Shown here one piece after another: positions 327 to 11,267 of a DNA stretch of 20,251 nt (its first letter is position 1; the number at the start of each line of letters is the position of its first letter). The DNA is taken from IMG/VR virus record IMGVR_UViG_3300020428_000122, positions 1-20,251 of that record; one strand, written 5' to 3'. The notes below the pieces were generated by a model. It was not told the DNA's origin, ran no database searches, and saw nothing but the letters and a program-made list of their open reading frames with translations. A program made the position numbers and the translations under genes. Source of the stretch: a virus.

Positions 327-674
327 CTAACGCCAAAACACCTGAATGATTATTATAGCGAATGCCAGTATGCTACAAATTATGGTTTTCGCGGTGAATG
401 GAGACTCTCCCAACAACCACCATGTTAGTATCGGAAAGCTGATGTAGCTGGCTGTGAAGGCCAAGAATCTGGCAGTCCACAACTCACCTGAGGCTTCCAT
501 TATAAGCCTTGTGCCGTACCAAAAACAAAGCCCTACCGGGATTGAGTAGGTCGCGACTGCCAGGAGGGGTTTATCTTGCCACCAACTCCAAACAAACTGC
601 GAGTTAAGTTGAAACCAAGCAAGTGCTTGGCCCGTGACGAACAGTAGTGCGCCATACAAAAATCTAGGATCCAA
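327..674 (-). CDS. Small four-helix integral membrane protein
   Basis: This 115-residue protein is strongly hydrophobic. About four transmembrane segments are visible, near residues 5-22, 37-55, 68-87 and 94-113, linked by short polar loops. The pattern and size resemble small multidrug resistance / drug-metabolite transporter half-proteins, and I recall similar proteins in marine phages, but no diagnostic transporter motif can be named. It would sit in the host inner membrane; a transport or holin-like role is possible but unsupported. The start is a TTG at 672-674, overlapping the end of the upstream methyltransferase-like gene by 11 nt, with GAGG about nine bases before it. Expression is probably coupled to that gene. 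Confidence 0.75.
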   Translation of the reverse strand: MDPRFLYGALLFVTGQALAWFQLNSQFVWSWWQDKPLLAVATYSIPVGLCFWYGTRLIMEASGELWTARFLAFTASYISFPILTWWLLGESPFTAKTIICSILAFAIIIIQVFWR

Positions 675-1437
675 TAATCAATACCTCTTCAGCCCTGTCC
701 GGGTTGCTTGTAGGTCGATAAGCCTCCGTGAACATGAGTATTTCAGAACCAGAGTACAATTCAAGCAACTCCTTATTATATTTATATAACAAAATCCAAC
801 CAGGGACATCGCGGGACTTAATCATTTTTGCGAACTTCTTATGGTTGAGTTGGGGCCTTTCAGGGATCACAACGGCTGCTGCAAGATTTGATTTTATATA
901 CTCGGGCATTGCGCAGACGAGATAGTTTCCTGCATCCAGAGCAGTCGTGTAACTTTCCAACTCTAATGTAAACGGTTGGGCTTCAAAGCTTGCTAACTGA
1001 TTTAACCTCATCTCGTTGAAATGTGGGGTGCCAGGGTCTAGGCGGCCGCCGGTTGTGGAGCCCTGCTCAGAACAGTGGTTCAGCACATAGAACAATGCTG
1101 AACGTAAAAATTCATCATCCGGCTGGTATACTTTCTTCTGCAGCATTGAGAAAAGCTTTTGCTCTCGGACTGGGTAGAAGCTACTGGCCATTTGGTATAG
1201 TTTTCCGGGATCCATTTGTATGCATTGCCAAAAGTCATACAACAAGCGATACTCCGTATATGCAGTCACCTTGTACCCTCTGGCTGCCAAACCAAGCTCG
1301 ATAGAACCACCTCCAAGAAAAGGGGTAGTAATTGAAGTTTGGCCGAGAGGGATATGCTCAGCTATTACGCTAACTGCTAGTGGTTTGTCGTTCGGATACG
1401 TCAGTGGCGACTTCTGTGTCTTCTTTGCGTTCAACAT
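664..1437 (-). CDS. Degenerate D12-class DNA adenine methyltransferase homologue
   Basis: The 257-residue protein follows the D12 (Dam-type) N6-adenine methyltransferase plan. It has TYPNDK where the family has YPGGK, then the SAM-binding motif PFLGGGSIE at 39-47. The C-terminal segment GWILLYKYNKELLELY...EEVLIIGS matches the family's conserved end. The catalytic motif IV, normally DPPY, reads AMPEY at 176-180, and the acidic residue expected after motif I is replaced in VTAYTEY. Methyl transfer is therefore doubtful. The fold may have been kept for DNA or SAM binding, or for blocking host methylation or restriction. The start overlaps the glutaredoxin gene by 68 nt, unusual here, but the conserved N-terminal block leaves little room for a later start. 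A separate intact adenine methyltransferase is encoded at 10791-11267. Confidence 0.75.
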   Translation of the reverse strand: MLNAKKTQKSPLTYPNDKPLAVSVIAEHIPLGQTSITTPFLGGGSIELGLAARGYKVTAYTEYRLLYDFWQCIQMDPGKLYQMASSFYPVREQKLFSMLQKKVYQPDDEFLRSALFYVLNHCSEQGSTTGGRLDPGTPHFNEMRLNQLASFEAQPFTLELESYTTALDAGNYLVCAMPEYIKSNLAAAVVIPERPQLNHKKFAKMIKSRDVPGWILLYKYNKELLELYSGSEILMFTEAYRPTSNPDRAEEVLIIGS

Positions 1438-1693
1438 CTTCTAATTGTTCCATGAAATATTCTTTAAGATCTGTAAAGCCGCCAATGAATTTCTCATTGC
1501 CAGAAACGTCCACCTCCACCACCATCGGCACTGTTTGCCAATCATACTTCTTCTTTACATTATGATAAAACTCCGGAGAGTTTTCAACCAGTGTAAGGAC
1601 GAATTCGCTGCCAACAGAATGCAGAAGGTTTACTGCGTCCACACACCACGGACATGTTGCCTTAGCGTAAACATGATAGTATTTTAACATCAT
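1370..1693 (-). CDS. Glutaredoxin
   Basis: This 107-residue thioredoxin-fold protein has the dithiol active site CPWC at residues 14-17. The cis-proline motif TVP is at 54-56, and the glutathione-binding GGF turn is at 71-73. The core fits a normal glutaredoxin of about 85 residues; the last 25 residues form an acidic, polar tail that overlaps the next gene. Such phage glutaredoxins can supply electrons to ribonucleotide reductase, but none is in this window. The start overlaps the upstream stop as ATGA, and two tandem ATGs follow AAAGGG directly, so the second Met (1690) may be the real start. Confidence 0.9.
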   Translation of the reverse strand: MMLKYYHVYAKATCPWCVDAVNLLHSVGSEFVLTLVENSPEFYHNVKKKYDWQTVPMVVEVDVSGNEKFIGGFTDLKEYFMEQLEDVERKEDTEVATDVSERQTTSS

Positions 1694-3003: not shown

Positions 3004-4581
3004 TCAGCTTTGTATAATAGCATAATTTGTAGTAATCAGTGTTCCCGCGGCTGAAACCGCGTTTTGCAGAGCCGTAGTGGTAACCTTGACTGGATCTAGG
3101 ATACCCGCTTTCAGCAAGTTGGTCTGCTCAAGGGTGCGAAAGTTACACCCCATTGGCGCCGGGTCATTCGATACCTGATCTACAATCAAATCTGCACTAA
3201 GGCCAGCGTTCTGGGCCATTTGTCTAATTGGGCCGGACATTGCTTCTAAAAGAATATCCACTCCTCTTTGCTGATCTTCGTTGTCTGTGTCAATATTGTT
3301 TTGGATAGCTGCAGCAGTTCTGAGAAGTGCTGTTCCTCCGCCGGGTACAATACCATCAATCTGTGCAGACTTAACAGCTTCTAAGGCATCTTCAATCCGG
3401 TGCTTCTTTTCTACCATCTCGACCTGTGTTGGGGCCCCAACGTGGATTACGCCGACGCCTGAAGCCAGACGGGTGATGCGTTGCTGCATAGCATCACAAA
3501 GCTGCATCGAATCCTCGTTCGCAATCTCTTCCTTTAGTCTTGCAATCTGTGTTTCGATACCCTCGTAGTCTGCTTGGCCACCAACAATAGTCGTGTGCGT
3601 TTTTGTTGACTCAATGGTCTTGGCAGTACCAAGGTGCGTCAGGGTAGTTTCGCGGAGTTGCATGCCTTTGGCTCGCGTGATCAGGGTTGCACCGGTAGAG
3701 AGGGCCAAGTCTGCAAGCATATCTCGGCGCTCTTGACCGTAGCGTGGGGCCTTGATGGCTGCAACCTTAAGGCTGCCCCTCATTGTGTTCATGACTATAG
3801 CTGCGAGAGCTTGACCCTCGATGTCATCAGCTACGATGATTAGTGGCCGGCTCTCACGGGCGGCTAGCTCTAGTATCGGGAGAATGTCATCTACCATCTC
3901 GATCTTATAATCCGTCACAAGGATCAGCGGACTGGTATGATTCATTGTGCCGCGGCGTTCATCTGTGACGAAAGCTGCTGCGCGGTAACCAGAGTCAATG
4001 CGGAAGCCCTCCATGATATCCAAATGAGTTTCCATCGTACGAGACTCTTCAATCGTAATCGATCCGTCGTTGCCAACTTTATCAACAGCTGTGGCAATAA
4101 GTTTACCTATGTACTTATCGTTATTCGCTGAGATTGTCGCGATTTGTTCGACGTCAGCAATAGTTCTCACGGGGGTGGCAACCTCACGCAAGTGTTCAAT
4201 GGCTACTTTGGCTGCAGCGTCCATGCCGCGCTTAAGCTCGACAGGAGAGGTTCCTGCCGCAAGATAGGGTTGGGCTCCAGTAAGGATAGCTCTCGACAGC
4301 ACTGTCGCTGTGGTGGTGCCATCGCCGGCATGAGCATTCGTCTCGATGGCGGCTTGCTTAATAATCTGTGCTGCAGCATTTTCAAAATGATCTTCCAGGT
4401 GCACGAATTGTGCGACGGTAACTCCGTCTTTTGTAATAAAAGGGGCTTGGCCCTTCTCCTGTAAGATTACATTTCGGCCTTTCGGGCCTAGGGTAGTGGC
4501 CACATTGTCGGCCAGTGTATTTACTCCATTGAGAATCTTCTCTCGGAGCGTGGTTTTTGAATCATAGCTAAATGTTGACAA
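3004..4581 (-). CDS. groEL: Phage-encoded chaperonin GroEL (HSP60)
   Basis: The 525-residue protein aligns without gaps to E. coli GroEL numbering through at least residue 398. The ATPase residues D52 (TKDG), D87 (AGDGTTTA) and D398 are all present, as is TLGPKGRNV at 30-38. The apical substrate/GroES-binding surface keeps Y199, F204, L234, L237, L259 and V263 but has R at 200, A at 203 and M at 264. The protein ends where the E. coli ordered domain ends, so the flexible GGM tail is missing. The start is TTG at 4579-4581 with GGAGG five to six bases upstream. No GroES gene is in the window. It probably folds phage capsid or replication proteins, either with host GroES or alone as in some phage chaperonins. 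Confidence 0.97.
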   Translation of the reverse strand: MSTFSYDSKTTLREKILNGVNTLADNVATTLGPKGRNVILQEKGQAPFITKDGVTVAQFVHLEDHFENAAAQIIKQAAIETNAHAGDGTTTATVLSRAILTGAQPYLAAGTSPVELKRGMDAAAKVAIEHLREVATPVRTIADVEQIATISANNDKYIGKLIATAVDKVGNDGSITIEESRTMETHLDIMEGFRIDSGYRAAAFVTDERRGTMNHTSPLILVTDYKIEMVDDILPILELAARESRPLIIVADDIEGQALAAIVMNTMRGSLKVAAIKAPRYGQERRDMLADLALSTGATLITRAKGMQLRETTLTHLGTAKTIESTKTHTTIVGGQADYEGIETQIARLKEEIANEDSMQLCDAMQQRITRLASGVGVIHVGAPTQVEMVEKKHRIEDALEAVKSAQIDGIVPGGGTALLRTAAAIQNNIDTDNEDQQRGVDILLEAMSGPIRQMAQNAGLSADLIVDQVSNDPAPMGCNFRTLEQTNLLKAGILDPVKVTTTALQNAVSAAGTLITTNYAIIQS

Positions 4582-4648: not shown

Positions 4649-6340
4649 TTATTCAGGTGCGTCTTCTGTGCGGGCTGCAAGCGATTTAACAATCGATTTT
4701 CCGTGAGTCTGAGCAGTTCGACTGGCTTCGGCTCCGACTGTACGATCCTCAGACGAAAAGTAAGTTCCGATATTCTCCGCGAACTCTTTTGTGGCCTGCA
4801 GCAGAGTGATCATATCATCGCCAAGCTTCTTAATGTAAATCTTGGCGACGGCTTCGATGTTCTTGCTAGAAAGATTTAAAGGTGGATAAAACTCTGTTTC
4901 CAAAAGAGAAGCCTGCGAAACGATGTCGTTGCCGGAGAGAGACCACTGAGAGCCTGCATCGTCGGAGCCCTTCTTGCCCCCCTCTCTCAGAGAGTTCTCT
5001 TCTGCCATAAGTTTTCTTTCTCTCTCATGAAAATGGCCAAAGTAAGATTCACTGACAGGCGCCTGCTCGACTTCGTCGTTACCGGCCATTGTAGCTTCTG
5101 CTTTTTTGACTCCCCTATCGAAATCGGCTCGCAGTCGGTCGCCATACTTCTTATCCGATCTGGCACGGGCCGCGTCAGACATCTTAGTACTTCTTGATGC
5201 AAAGCCAGCCTCAACTTTGTCTTCGTAAGATATACTTGCCCACCATGTATCAAAGTCTGGGCCATTCTCTCTAGAGTGTTCGAAGCCGGCTGTATTGGCT
5301 AACTGTCTCACCTTTAGAGTTGTTTGTCCACGTTGGACCATCGCATCAAAGGGGCTGATCTTAGGTTTGGCATCGGGGTCGGCTGGCTCAACAGCATCTT
5401 CTGGTGACTTTTCAAGATCGTCGAAAGCTCCAGCCGCGTCAAGGTTTTTATTGAACATTCCACGTTTCCATGTATAGCCCGGAGTCTGTTCTAAAATTCT
5501 AGCCATTTTAACTCGCCACTCTGGTGAGTCCTGCCAGACTGCGATGTGATCCTTTAAAGCTTCTGCTTGATTACCGAGCAGACCCATATTGTTTTTACCA
5601 GTGTTGGCAAACACCTGTACAACATTACTGCGCTTAATCTCAAATTCCCAAATACCAAGCTTATCGACATTCTCCCCTTCCTTATTCTTATAAGCAACAA
5701 GGTAGCCAATAGAGTCCACTCCACGGCCTCCACGAATGAATAAATAGTCAAATAGGTTAGTAAAACTGCCGTGAATTCCGGTTTTAGGACTTAATAGCTT
5801 CAAGCTTACATTTCGGTCATCGCTAGTGATGAAGTCCTCAATTGGCAAGGTACCGCCGACACGGCCGGCTTCTTGGCGGCCCTGAGTTAGCGCAGCCATG
5901 AACCCTTCGAACACGAAGCCGGCAGAGGATTCATTGAAGTCGTTTAGCGTAGCCTGCAGGGATTCGATAATTTGCATCATGCTGAGCAGTGTGTGAACTT
6001 TTCCGCCGGGAGCTTTTAATTTGGCTGATTCGGGATCTAGGAAAGAGTTAACATGTGCGATACGGTCTTTAATTGAGCCGGCTCGGTTAATAGCAGAAAA
6101 TACTTTATCGATATCTTTTCGGGCCATTGAACTGGGATCACCCCAAGCTTCTGTTGGAACTAACTTGGGAATTGGAATGTGCACGCTGAAGCGGCCTGAG
6201 CTTGGGGAGGCCTCATCCTCTGTAATTGCTACGCGGGGGGCCTCACTCATCACTTCTTCGACTAAGCGTACTAGGGCCTCAAAGTCCATGCTCTCGCTGG
6301 GCTTTAAAAAGCCCTCTACTAATGTATCAAAATCTGACAT
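4649..6340 (-). CDS. Large unknown phage protein, possible nuclease-like fold
   Basis: The 563-residue protein has no domain I can name with certainty. The best-ordered part is residues 115-260. It contains GFVFEGFMAAL (E145), then PIEDF (D169) and VSLKLLSP (K181), followed by GSFTNLFDYL and GIWEFEIKRSN. The E...D...xxK order and strand pattern are loosely like the PD-(D/E)XK nuclease fold, but the second acidic residue is not convincing. Residues 310-345 and 415-480 are charged and likely disordered. I recall similar proteins in marine myophages, so a conserved virion or DNA-handling role is plausible. ATG at 6338-6340 follows GAGGA at seven bases. Confidence 0.8.
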   Translation of the reverse strand: MSDFDTLVEGFLKPSESMDFEALVRLVEEVMSEAPRVAITEDEASPSSGRFSVHIPIPKLVPTEAWGDPSSMARKDIDKVFSAINRAGSIKDRIAHVNSFLDPESAKLKAPGGKVHTLLSMMQIIESLQATLNDFNESSAGFVFEGFMAALTQGRQEAGRVGGTLPIEDFITSDDRNVSLKLLSPKTGIHGSFTNLFDYLFIRGGRGVDSIGYLVAYKNKEGENVDKLGIWEFEIKRSNVVQVFANTGKNNMGLLGNQAEALKDHIAVWQDSPEWRVKMARILEQTPGYTWKRGMFNKNLDAAGAFDDLEKSPEDAVEPADPDAKPKISPFDAMVQRGQTTLKVRQLANTAGFEHSRENGPDFDTWWASISYEDKVEAGFASRSTKMSDAARARSDKKYGDRLRADFDRGVKKAEATMAGNDEVEQAPVSESYFGHFHERERKLMAEENSLREGGKKGSDDAGSQWSLSGNDIVSQASLLETEFYPPLNLSSKNIEAVAKIYIKKLGDDMITLLQATKEFAENIGTYFSSEDRTVGAEASRTAQTHGKSIVKSLAARTEDAPE

Positions 6341-6343
6341 TTT

Positions 6344-6964
6344 TTAATCCTCTATATCCGTGCTTTCCAAAAGGGTGTAGCTAAATGAATTTCCTAATCT
6401 GTTAGCGGCTTCTTTCATGGTTGACATGAAGGACTTGAAATCACTATCGTTTTTAAAAACTTGGCAGCCAGCGGACCATTTATCGACTCGGATTGAGTTG
6501 CGGCCGGCCTTGTGTAAATTGATCCCGAACCACCCTGTATCTTTAGTTGAGTCGTCCATATCGTGCTTTGAGTCGCGATCAGAGTCGCGCCAAACAGTAA
6601 CCTCAGCACCCCTTTGGCATAACGCTTCGTATTTTCCTGCGTGCTTATCAATTTTGTGTGATCCTCGGTATTGGCCCGGGCAAAGAATGGCTGTGCCTTT
6701 GACGTTCATGGGGCGCTTAAGCCAGTAAAGTCCCGGATCTGTTGTGATTTGGTACGTATCCACTAGCCACCTTTTGTAGGAATCTCGGTAGATTATCAAC
6801 ATTACATCATCGAACTTATTTGCTTGACCGTGCATGTTTCTTACACCAATGATGTTTACATTATATGGTACACTACTATCAAAAAATTTGTAACCCTTTT
6901 TTTCAATAATCTTGCGGTACCTTTCTTTAATTATTTCTGCGTGATATCCTCTTACTTTGGCCAT
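6344..6964 (-). CDS. YkuD-like putative cell-wall enzyme
   Basis: The C-terminal half of this 206-residue protein carries GINLHKAG (H151) and, 16 residues on, WSAGCQVF (S164, C167). This matches the H...S-x-G-C signature of L,D-transpeptidase (YkuD)-type catalytic domains, so it may cut or link peptidoglycan as an endolysin or virion lysin. The N-terminal 60 residues are basic and helical, with no signal peptide. I chose the ATG at 6962-6964, which has AAGGA six bases upstream; the longer reading from TTG at 6994 would overlap clpP and lacks a good site. A cysteine peptidase of related shape is an alternative. Confidence 0.65.
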   Translation of the reverse strand: MAKVRGYHAEIIKERYRKIIEKKGYKFFDSSVPYNVNIIGVRNMHGQANKFDDVMLIIYRDSYKRWLVDTYQITTDPGLYWLKRPMNVKGTAILCPGQYRGSHKIDKHAGKYEALCQRGAEVTVWRDSDRDSKHDMDDSTKDTGWFGINLHKAGRNSIRVDKWSAGCQVFKNDSDFKSFMSTMKEAANRLGNSFSYTLLESTDIED

Positions 6965-6974
6965 GCTGGATCCT

Positions 6975-7658
6975 TCAAATGTATTTATCGGCAATTCCGT
7001 ACTGAATTGCTTCCTCTGCAGATAAATAGATGTTAACTCTCTTATCTAACAGTTTCTTGAGAGATCTTTTTGTAAAACTTGTCTCTGAGATTAATACTTC
7101 TACATATCGGGACTCCATTGCCTCGATGGATTCGAGGTCGGCAGCCATCGAGGGGAGAGAGCCTGCGATGCCGCCGGCGACATGATGAATCATTACCCTG
7201 CAGTTCTTGCCAATGCGGCGTTCGCCCTTTGTACCCGAAGCTAGGAGCAGTACTCCAGCTGACATTACTTTCCCCATGCCATAAGTGTGGATAGGAGTTT
7301 CTTCCTGCACAGATTTCATAACGTCATAAATCGCGAACATATCATCGGCATTCCCGCCATATGTTGAAATCATAAAGTCGATGCCGTGTACGAAGCGCTC
7401 GACTTCTTTACACTCGGCGTCGTCTGGGTTTACTGGTACGATCTCTTCACTATTGAGCGACATCGAGATCAATTCTTCGATAATCTTCTCACTCTGCTCA
7501 TCGCAAACCTCACCAAATAGCTTCACAGACCGGGTTGCTCGGCCGCCTCCCATACCAAAACCGGGCAACATCGGTGTAGGCATGATAATAATCTTACTTT
7601 TCTCTGTATCTTCTGCTAACTCGGCAAGTTGCTCCAAATTCTGCTGTTCTTTTGTCAT
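6975..7658 (-). CDS. ClpP-like serine protease, phage type
   Basis: The 227-residue protein follows the ClpP fold. It has STYGGNADDMFAIYD (oxyanion region, 98-112), the nucleophile S133 in GKVMSAGVLLLASG, H158 in VMIHHVAGG, and the closing LSAEEAIQYGIAD block. The position of the catalytic aspartate (E. coli D171) is asparagine, N209, a feature I recall in related phage ClpPs. The first 45 residues are an acidic extension and then a glycine-rich loop. No ClpX/ClpA partner is in the window. It could act in capsid maturation or in degrading host proteins, with or without host ATPases. ATG at 7656-7658 follows GAGGT at seven bases. The gene begins a new unit after the terminator at 7731-7760. 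Confidence 0.9.
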   Translation of the reverse strand: MTKEQQNLEQLAELAEDTEKSKIIIMPTPMLPGFGMGGGRATRSVKLFGEVCDEQSEKIIEELISMSLNSEEIVPVNPDDAECKEVERFVHGIDFMISTYGGNADDMFAIYDVMKSVQEETPIHTYGMGKVMSAGVLLLASGTKGERRIGKNCRVMIHHVAGGIAGSLPSMAADLESIEAMESRYVEVLISETSFTKRSLKKLLDKRVNIYLSAEEAIQYGIADKYI

Positions 7659-8758: not shown

Positions 8759-9093
8759 AGCTCGGGGTGCTCCTGTTCAATTAGGTCGAAGATATCAGAC
8801 ACTTCAGCCTCCCTAAGTCCATGAGTCTCTTCCGCTTCTCTTCCTTTTTCTATCATCTTGTTCATTTTCTTTCTCTGAGTGGCGGACTGTGTTCCCGCTT
8901 CTTGTTTATAGTTATCGATAAATGCTAACAAATCCGAGTCTTTATTCAAATAACCAGTTATCATCATTCGAAAAAACGCCGATTGTGTTAGTCCGTCATG
9001 CTGCAGCCGGATCTTCAGGTCTGCGTGGCGCTTGTCATTATCATAGAAGATGACTTTTTTATCATTCGGGCCGTATTCTTCAAACTCAGCCAT
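8755..9093 (-). CDS. Ribbon-helix-helix-like small protein
   Basis: In this 112-residue protein, the segment RHADLKIRLQHDG (22-34) followed by LTQSAFFRMMITGYLNKD (35-52) looks like the strand-helix-helix of an Arc/CopG-type DNA-binding protein. A long charged helix (60-95) and an acidic end, DIFDLIEQEHPEL, follow. I recall close relatives in many marine phages without known function. The ATG at 9091-9093 has AAGG at six bases and overlaps the GMPR/IMPDH gene by 8 nt. Coupling to the sigma4-like gene suggests a joint regulatory role. Confidence 0.75.
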   Translation of the reverse strand: MAEFEEYGPNDKKVIFYDNDKRHADLKIRLQHDGLTQSAFFRMMITGYLNKDSDLLAFIDNYKQEAGTQSATQRKKMNKMIEKGREAEETHGLREAEVSDIFDLIEQEHPEL

Positions 9094-10114
9094 ATCGAAC
9101 CTTAATGTGAGTCGAGCTTTCCACTTGGCCGGCGGGGGTCTGTTGAATCAACTGGCACTTTGCGGCGAACTCGCTGAGATTGTGTGCGCCGGTATAAGAG
9201 AATCCGCTGCGAATTCCGTTATCTAGCTGCTGGAGGATGGGCACTACCGAGCCTCGATAAGGCAACATGCTCGCGACACCCTCCAGTGAAGATGTTCTGC
9301 CTCGCCAGCTAAGCTGCGCTTCTGCTGAAGCCATGCCACGATACTCTTTATACTTCTGGCCATCCATCGAAATGATACGGCCTGGGCACTCGTCTGTGCC
9401 TGCTAGAAGAGATCCCAGCATAACGAAGTCTGCGCCGGCAGCGAGGGATTTTACAATGTCGCCGCTGTTTTTGATTCCGCCATCGGCAATCAGTTTCACG
9501 CCATACTCATCTGCCACTGCAGAGCAGTCTAGAATAGATTGGAACGTGGGCATGCCGTGGCCTGTTTGAATGCGAGTTGAGCAGATGGAACCTCCGCCGA
9601 TGCCGACGCGAATGCTGTTGGCTCCCCACTTTGCTAGATCCTGGACTGCTTCGGGAGTGGCGACATTGCCAGCCATCAAGTGTATCTTTTTAGCTTGGGC
9701 AGTTGGCACGATGGCGGCCAACGTCTTCTGCACTAAGGAGTGGTGACCATGCGCAACATCGATACATAAAACGTCGGCGCCGGCAGCCATAAGAGCGTGC
9801 GCACGTACGATGGCTTCGTCACCAGTGCCGATTGCGGCGCCGACAGCGGAAGAGTCGTCCTTTTTTACATCCATAACGGTCTGGACCTGTTCAATGGTGT
9901 CCATGTAGCGGTGGATAATTGCCATGCCTCCCATCCGAGAAATAACTGTCGCCATTTCAAATCCGCTCACTGTGTCCATAGGACTGGCTATGATGGGCAG
10001 GGTTAGTTCAAGGTCAGGTGACAATCGTGAGGATATATCAATCTGCCGGCGGCTCTTAATATCACTATACTGTGGTTGCAAGAGCACATCGTCGTATGAT
10101 AGTGTTTTTCTCAT
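9086..10114 (-). CDS. IMP dehydrogenase / GMP reductase family enzyme
   Basis: The 342-residue TIM-barrel protein has the catalytic loop GIGGGSICSTR with nucleophile C178. It also has the IMP-binding blocks ADGGIKNSGDIVKSLAAGADFVMLGS and YRGMAS, and the ending SGFSYTGA. The CBS domains of normal IMP dehydrogenase are absent, and its flap Arg-Tyr pair (418-419 in bacterial enzymes) is not seen near GRTSSLEGV. The short length and missing RY favour GMP reductase (GMP to IMP), though the sequence also keeps IMPDH-like features. It would shift guanine/adenine nucleotide pools during phage replication. The start ATG at 10112-10114 matches the family N-terminus MRKTLSYDDVLLQP and overlaps the previous stop as ATGA. 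Confidence 0.9.
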   Translation of the reverse strand: MRKTLSYDDVLLQPQYSDIKSRRQIDISSRLSPDLELTLPIIASPMDTVSGFEMATVISRMGGMAIIHRYMDTIEQVQTVMDVKKDDSSAVGAAIGTGDEAIVRAHALMAAGADVLCIDVAHGHHSLVQKTLAAIVPTAQAKKIHLMAGNVATPEAVQDLAKWGANSIRVGIGGGSICSTRIQTGHGMPTFQSILDCSAVADEYGVKLIADGGIKNSGDIVKSLAAGADFVMLGSLLAGTDECPGRIISMDGQKYKEYRGMASAEAQLSWRGRTSSLEGVASMLPYRGSVVPILQQLDNGIRSGFSYTGAHNLSEFAAKCQLIQQTPAGQVESSTHIKVRYG

Positions 10115-10425
10115 TGTTCTTCTTCCGTGGTAGACTCGGGTGGTGGCGCGAATCTCTCCGCCATCGACTCTACAATATTGATAGCCTTCTGCCAACAATC
10201 GGGGCAATACAAGTTTACTTTTTCTTCTGCTTCTCTGACTGCCACATGCCAAGTTGCAACCATATCTCGGTCTGTCTTATCAAATGGGGTGTGGCATGTC
10301 AAGCACTCGTCAGGGAGATGACCGAAGAGCGCGACCTTCTGGCCGATGTCGGTATTCGCCTTTTTGGCCTTCTTTATCGATTGCCGGCGAAGTGCGTCGT
10401 CGGCCCGGCGCTGCTTTCTATTCAC
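10111..10425 (-). CDS. Small zinc-finger-like protein
   Basis: From GTG at 10423-10425 the protein is 104 residues. It has a very basic start (NRKQRRADDALRRQSIKKAKK), then CLTC (41-44) and CPDC (74-77), a likely single zinc site with two CxxC knuckles. An acidic tail follows. I prefer this GTG because it overlaps the upstream stop by 8 nt, has GAGG nine bases before it, and yields the N-terminus I recall in related phage proteins. The longer frame would overlap the upstream gene by 164 nt. Nucleic-acid binding is plausible; function is unknown. Confidence 0.75.
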   Translation of the reverse strand: MNRKQRRADDALRRQSIKKAKKANTDIGQKVALFGHLPDECLTCHTPFDKTDRDMVATWHVAVREAEEKVNLYCPDCWQKAINIVESMAERFAPPPESTTEEEQ

Positions 10426-10790: not shown

Positions 10791-11267
10791 CTAACGGTTC
10801 ATTGCGCCGAAGATTTGTTGGCCAGCATGGCTTCCATCAAATACAATCACGGCTGAGGGGAACGGGGCGCAGTTCTTAGCTGCTCCGAATTTGAGTCGAC
10901 CCTTGACGAAGTGCACCTCTGCTGCCTTCATAACATAGGAATGCCAGTACTTTGTATCGGTCCTTGCCGGGATCAACATTACTACTCGGGAATTCTCATT
11001 CTTTGCTGTATTGTAGGCCTTCTCGATCCACTTCTCAATACCTCGCCCATAAGGGGGGTTGACAAACACTGTGTGGCCAGTCCAATCTTTGGATAGTCCG
11101 TCCTCAATCTCCGTGTAGAAGTTTGCACACTTTGTATTGTGGGTGCTTGCGCAGGGATCTAGATCGAACGGTCCATATCTCCAATTGAGTTTATCAAAGA
11201 AGTCTTGAGGGGTTGCCCAATCTCCTGTTTTCGAGGAAAACATTACTTTTTGTACATTACTATTCAT
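10791..11267 (-). CDS. Phage DNA N6-adenine methyltransferase
   Basis: The 158-residue protein fits the phage Dam-like family (PF05869). It opens with DWATPQDFFDKLN and FDLDPCAS, carries the catalytic NPPY at 70-73 (FVNPPYGRG), and has VVMLIPARTDTKYWHSYV and KGRLKFG blocks in the usual order. It should transfer a methyl group from SAM to adenine N6 in DNA, protecting phage DNA from host restriction or marking it. The start overlaps the DUF3310 gene by 8 nt, with AAGG six to seven bases before the ATG. This is the intact adenine methyltransferase here, in contrast to the degenerate D12 homologue at 664-1437. Confidence 0.93.
   Translation of the reverse strand: MNSNVQKVMFSSKTGDWATPQDFFDKLNWRYGPFDLDPCASTHNTKCANFYTEIEDGLSKDWTGHTVFVNPPYGRGIEKWIEKAYNTAKNENSRVVMLIPARTDTKYWHSYVMKAAEVHFVKGRLKFGAAKNCAPFPSAVIVFDGSHAGQQIFGAMNR

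Follow-up and report, generated by a model that had tools for sequence, protein, structure and literature searches.

A phage D12-family protein that is maintained without its catalytic motifs and encoded beside a predicted membrane protein

Adenine methyltransferases of the D12 class (PF02086), among them E. coli Dam (EcoDam), T4 Dam, DpnM and Mcbe1 (7m6b), share their fold with the phage protein described here along almost all of its length and have the same order of core elements. Its best relatives from cultured phages are the "Dam" proteins of T4-like cyanophages (Kyanoviridae), e.g. those of Syn1 and P-SSM2, at about 25-30% identity. Each of those read has FLGGGS or FIGGGS and, unlike our protein, an intact DPPY, with RYPGGK present where the annotated start includes it; their genes adjoin sliding-clamp/clamp-loader genes or, in one phage, polymerase and primase genes. 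A precedent for a disabled enzyme of this kind, METTL14, belongs to another methyltransferase family than D12. Methyltransferase-derived pseudoenzymes are already known in eukaryotes: METTL14 has EPPL for DPPW and a pocket without SAM, and is required by METTL3 (PMC6112310). Like the family presented below, it has the fold of an N6-adenine methyltransferase but a motif IV that is disabled, and is kept in non-catalytic form (PMC6112310). It differs in being eukaryotic and in acting on RNA, and it is bound to an active relative. A search of the open-access literature found no account of a phage D12 family that is catalytically dead, and phage D12 pseudo-methyltransferases have apparently not been described there before.

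The window, by which we mean the whole stretch of DNA analysed, is a 20,251-base virus record. Four of its genes concern us here:

327..674, minus strand: 115-aa hydrophobic (predicted membrane) protein, TTG start, 11-nt overlap with the D12-like gene
664..1437, minus strand: D12-derived pseudo-methyltransferase, 257 aa (intact reading frame, Pfam/PHROG D12 match, AlphaFold2 model)
1370..1693, minus strand: glutaredoxin-like gene upstream of the D12-like gene, 68-nt overlap (reading frame and profile)
10791..11267, minus strand: intact phage Dam-type N6-adenine methyltransferase (PF05869), NPPY at 11049-11060

The window further holds phage-like DnaE and dUTPase genes, a GroEL-like chaperonin (3004-4581, minus strand), a ClpP-like protease (6975-7658, minus strand) and an IMP dehydrogenase/GMP reductase-like gene (9086-10252, minus strand), the last judged by sequence character only; names given without a profile test were assigned by reading the sequence. 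In relatives, too, the GroEL gene sits a few genes upstream of the D12-like gene.

The D12-like gene starts with ATG and is uninterrupted over its 257 aa. Its product matches the Pfam MethyltransfD12 profile of the D12 class over residues 18-125 (E 9.7e-5; 22.6 bits against a cut-off of 22) and PHROG 56, "DNA methyltransferase" (E 1e-6). An AlphaFold2 model built on an alignment of 52 homologues reached a pLDDT of 93.4, and its best solved-structure matches were Mcbe1 (7m6b; VIA Z 23.8, 221 residues aligned) followed by EcoDam, DpnM and T4 Dam (Z 19-23), which places the protein in the Dam/DpnM-type fold.

Scanning viral contigs with the 115-aa neighbour protein gave 80 loci, which were pooled with earlier loci to define the family. 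Directly upstream of the 115-aa gene we found 51 non-redundant D12-like sequences that are catalytically dead by their motifs and a single intact one (L077). The predicted Dam fold recurs in both sub-groups of this dead family, most of which goes unrecognised by the Pfam D12 profile (1/45 at E < 0.01). For comparison, the 51 were aligned with 18 relatives presumed active because all catalytic motifs are present, namely 13 from the same phage group and five cyanophage Dam proteins. The informative positions in the window protein are:

898..909, minus strand: MPEY (residues 177-180), replacing the catalytic DPPY (alignment)
1063..1068, minus strand: E124-Q125, replacing an invariant Phe-Ser of the active relatives (alignment)
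1255..1257, minus strand: T61, at the position of the motif II Asp (alignment)
1303..1323, minus strand: motif I, PFLGGGS (residues 39-45), which the sub-clade of the window retains and most of the family has lost
1384..1398, minus strand: motif X remnant, YPNDK (residues 14-18), where 18/18 active relatives have YPGGK

A preliminary description of this DNA had held that the catalytic DPPY was lost while motif I was conserved and the acidic residue after it changed, and each of these points stands. MPEY falls on the DPPY column, which is invariant in the active relatives, and the Asp of that column is found in 18/18 active against 0/51 dead sequences. The motif reads MPEY in the window itself, PPPY in L001 and L008 and PPPL in L039; across the dead family its second position is Gly in 40/51 and its aromatic position is Phe or Tyr in 44/51. 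The motif has not simply moved, as [DNS]PP[YFWHL] is absent throughout the window protein and its 50 non-catalytic relatives and present only in L077. A shifted DPPY was rejected as well for the 48 loci of a scan blind to the membrane gene, presented below. The acidic residue is the motif II Asp, present in 18/18 active relatives and replaced by Thr in the window and in 46/51 dead sequences; by alignment, the adjacent E62 is not its equivalent. The altered motif X adds to the earlier account, and the observation as a whole is confirmed and larger than first described.

Taken across the three elements of the SAM pocket (motif X GGK, motif I GGG, motif II Asp), the window protein has kept motif I and changed the other two, and most members of the wider family have lost all three. 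GGGS survives in the four-member sub-clade of the window; the first Gly of motif I has become Tyr or Phe in 34/51 dead sequences, and because of this aromatic replacement SAM binding is probably lost in most members. Given that one of the sub-groups still has GGGS and neither has the two aspartates, the simplest order of events would be that the aspartates went first and the glycine loop later. Some positions have newly become near-invariant in the dead family (T53, G176, G238 and T241 in L010 numbering). The motif II and motif IV sites are themselves among them, as would fit either a pocket that was remodelled or packing that followed the loss of the cofactor.

The window's sub-clade may retain weak SAM binding or an odd activity, since it keeps GGGS and, mostly, the motif IV aromatic. 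That its members are still enzymes, methylating through MPEY/PPPY or performing a different SAM chemistry, nevertheless appears very unlikely. PPPY is the reading in two of the four members, and the window protein does retain Tyr14, Pro15, Lys18, GGGS and Tyr180. Against this, neither of the aspartates that every one of the 18 active relatives has is found at its position, Glu takes the place of the second motif IV proline in the window, and the motif of one close relative is PPPL.

Missing catalytic residues could also mark a pseudogene in the course of decay or an artefact in the sequence of a single contig, an explanation whose probability we regard as negligible and which is refuted by the selection tests. 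Under a codon model, the trio of the window, L001 and L008 gave an omega of about 0.05, with omega = 1 worse by 120 lnL, or by 113 lnL once codons overlapping the neighbouring genes were left out. A second trio (L010, L011 and L028) gave the same omega of about 0.05, with omega = 1 worse by 78 lnL. Synonymous sites were saturated in both trios and therefore close pairs were also used, for which dN/dS was 0.04-0.19 at dS down to 0.03. On the window's own branch omega was 0.12, with omega = 1 rejected more weakly (2dlnL 7.5). Purifying selection on the dead gene is strong, dozens of intact homologous frames occur across separate contigs, and the predicted fold is well packed. The gene had been proposed to be open, maintained and not decaying; its intact ATG-started frame, its membership of a single-origin clade and a dN/dS well below 1 agree with this, and the reading of a kept but non-catalytic methyltransferase is supported. 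A homologue of an enzyme family whose catalytic residues are gone and which selection preserves is a pseudo-methyltransferase.

Phylogenetically, all dead sequences group together in one clade (SH-aLRT 99, and still 99 after removal of nine long-branch rows) that is sister to the 13 active ones from the same phage group, showing that a phage D12 ancestor lost its catalytic and ribose-binding aspartates once. This sister group unites the active D12 paralogues L117, L118 and L121-L130 with L077, whose intact, DPPY-bearing D12 gene (6222-7004) overlaps the membrane gene by 4 nt and is the only intact one found in the slot that otherwise holds dead copies. L077 groups with the active set (support 90-92), but placing it beside the dead clade as its sister gives a tree that is just as good (AU p 0.557). 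It may represent the ancestral state of the slot or, alternatively, a replacement by a D12 copy from elsewhere. Unlike the dead clade, the closest active branch had DPPY in 80/80 of the loci scanned and no adjoining membrane gene in 79/80, only L077's adjoining the 115-aa gene; a few of these loci end close to the D12 gene, where a neighbour just outside could be missed. Among 84,980 prokaryote genomes, a search sensitive to close relatives only returned no relative with the dead-gene pattern. Two very diverged copies in the same slot, in L080 (6220-7002) and L057 (6223-6996), form a long branch and lack most of what the other dead sequences conserve.

The 115-aa neighbour is predicted from the hydrophobic character of its sequence to be a membrane protein, and searches against Pfam, NCBIfam and PDB sequences gave no match. 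A distant homologue in a Flavobacterium phage carries the annotation "multidrug transporter". Because the family search had first been anchored on the membrane gene, linkage was guaranteed, and the search was therefore repeated with the D12-like gene alone. This returned 48 dead copies, 47 adjoining the 115-aa gene and one at a contig end, under a pattern drawn from one half of the dead family, with the window's sub-clade tested less strictly. Overlap between the two frames is usually 4-17 nt, in several cases measured from apparent TTG starts that may not be real. The 115-aa gene also occurs without the D12-like gene, and hence the dependence appears to be one-way, the dead D12-like gene needing the membrane gene and not the reverse. 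In eight loci without a dead D12 gene (L012, L013, L042, L050, L056, L061, L065 and L114), the slot upstream of the 115-aa gene is taken by an HExxH (ImmA/IrrE-like) peptidase-like gene, its domain named by sequence. Two unrelated proteins, the dead D12-like protein and the HExxH peptidase-like one, thus alternate beside the same membrane gene.

We consider it rather unlikely that the protein serves as a decoy or DNA binder, occupying restriction or methylation sites or binding modified DNA without methylating it. Its D12 fold is complete, and the motif IV aromatic, which stacks on the flipped base in active enzymes, is Phe or Tyr in most of the dead family. Compared with D12 enzymes, however, the dead family has not only lost the motif IV Asp, the motif II Asp and the motif X GG, with an aromatic at the motif I Gly in most members, but also carries changed hairpin residues. 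E124-Q125 lie at what we take to be the start of the Dam-type DNA-recognition hairpin, where the Phe-Ser of active relatives presumably corresponds to the base-intercalating Tyr119 and to Asn120 of EcoDam. In the dead proteins these positions hold mostly acidic or variable residues. Since residues aligned with the Dam recognition hairpin have changed, DNA binding as in Dam seems somewhat disfavoured. The dead proteins are also shorter (median 257 aa against 281 in active ones), and constant linkage to a hydrophobic protein would be unexpected for a decoy; that the gene's constant partner encodes a predicted membrane protein rather than a DNA-modifying enzyme likewise leans against DNA binding in the manner of the active ancestor. 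Charge was dropped as a test of DNA binding, as dead and active proteins are equally neutral and charge is uninformative on this point.

The PF05869 enzyme of the window is apparently active and differs in family from D12. A rival reading is a METTL14/METTL3-like arrangement. Here the dead protein would pair with the active PF05869 Dam, or with an intact D12 paralogue, as a regulatory or substrate-binding subunit, and would alter the activity or target choice of the active enzyme. We hold this to be unlikely, although it has the METTL14 precedent (PMC6112310), an intact PF05869 gene is found in nearly every record carrying the dead gene, and an intact D12 belonging to the nearest active branch is present in several of these records as well. 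Among the first nine records PF05869 even appeared to pair specifically with the dead gene (5/5 with it, 0/4 without), an association that was dropped because PF05869 is present in most relatives without the dead gene as well and so does not identify a partner. Moreover, long records (203, 196, 146 and 187 kb) have the dead gene without an intact D12, and the dead gene adjoins neither the PF05869 enzyme nor an intact D12.

Our best explanation, offered tentatively and at slightly less than an even chance, is that this pseudo-methyltransferase partners the membrane protein in a non-enzymatic role. A phage D12 adenine methyltransferase ancestor lost both aspartates and retained its fold under purifying selection. 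The resulting protein would transfer no methyl groups and, in most members, bind no SAM. It would be produced together with the membrane protein and serve as its cytosolic partner, as adaptor, regulator or ligand-sensing subunit, with the remodelled rim of the old active site acting as a binding surface. Linkage and overlap do not prove a physical interaction between the two proteins, because genes are tightly packed in these phages and the membrane gene is also found where the D12-like gene is absent. More speculatively, and with a low probability in our estimation, the fold, emptied of cofactor and catalysis in what would be a large and widespread family of phage proteins, may have become the soluble half of a two-protein membrane system, which could, for example, use the old SAM pocket to sense a new ligand and control the small membrane protein during infection.

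In conclusion, the label "DNA methyltransferase" is attached in databases to the window protein and to some of its relatives, and Pfam misses most of the family, an annotation trap for those who read these genomes. A single phage group provides a natural contrast, in which intact D12 copies sit at other genomic positions, the dead ones occupy one slot beside a fixed neighbour, and L077 has an intact copy in the dead slot, so that the change from enzyme to non-enzyme is directly testable. With dozens of related phages from the environment keeping the disabled version, always beside the membrane gene, evolution has apparently given an old enzyme fold a new job.
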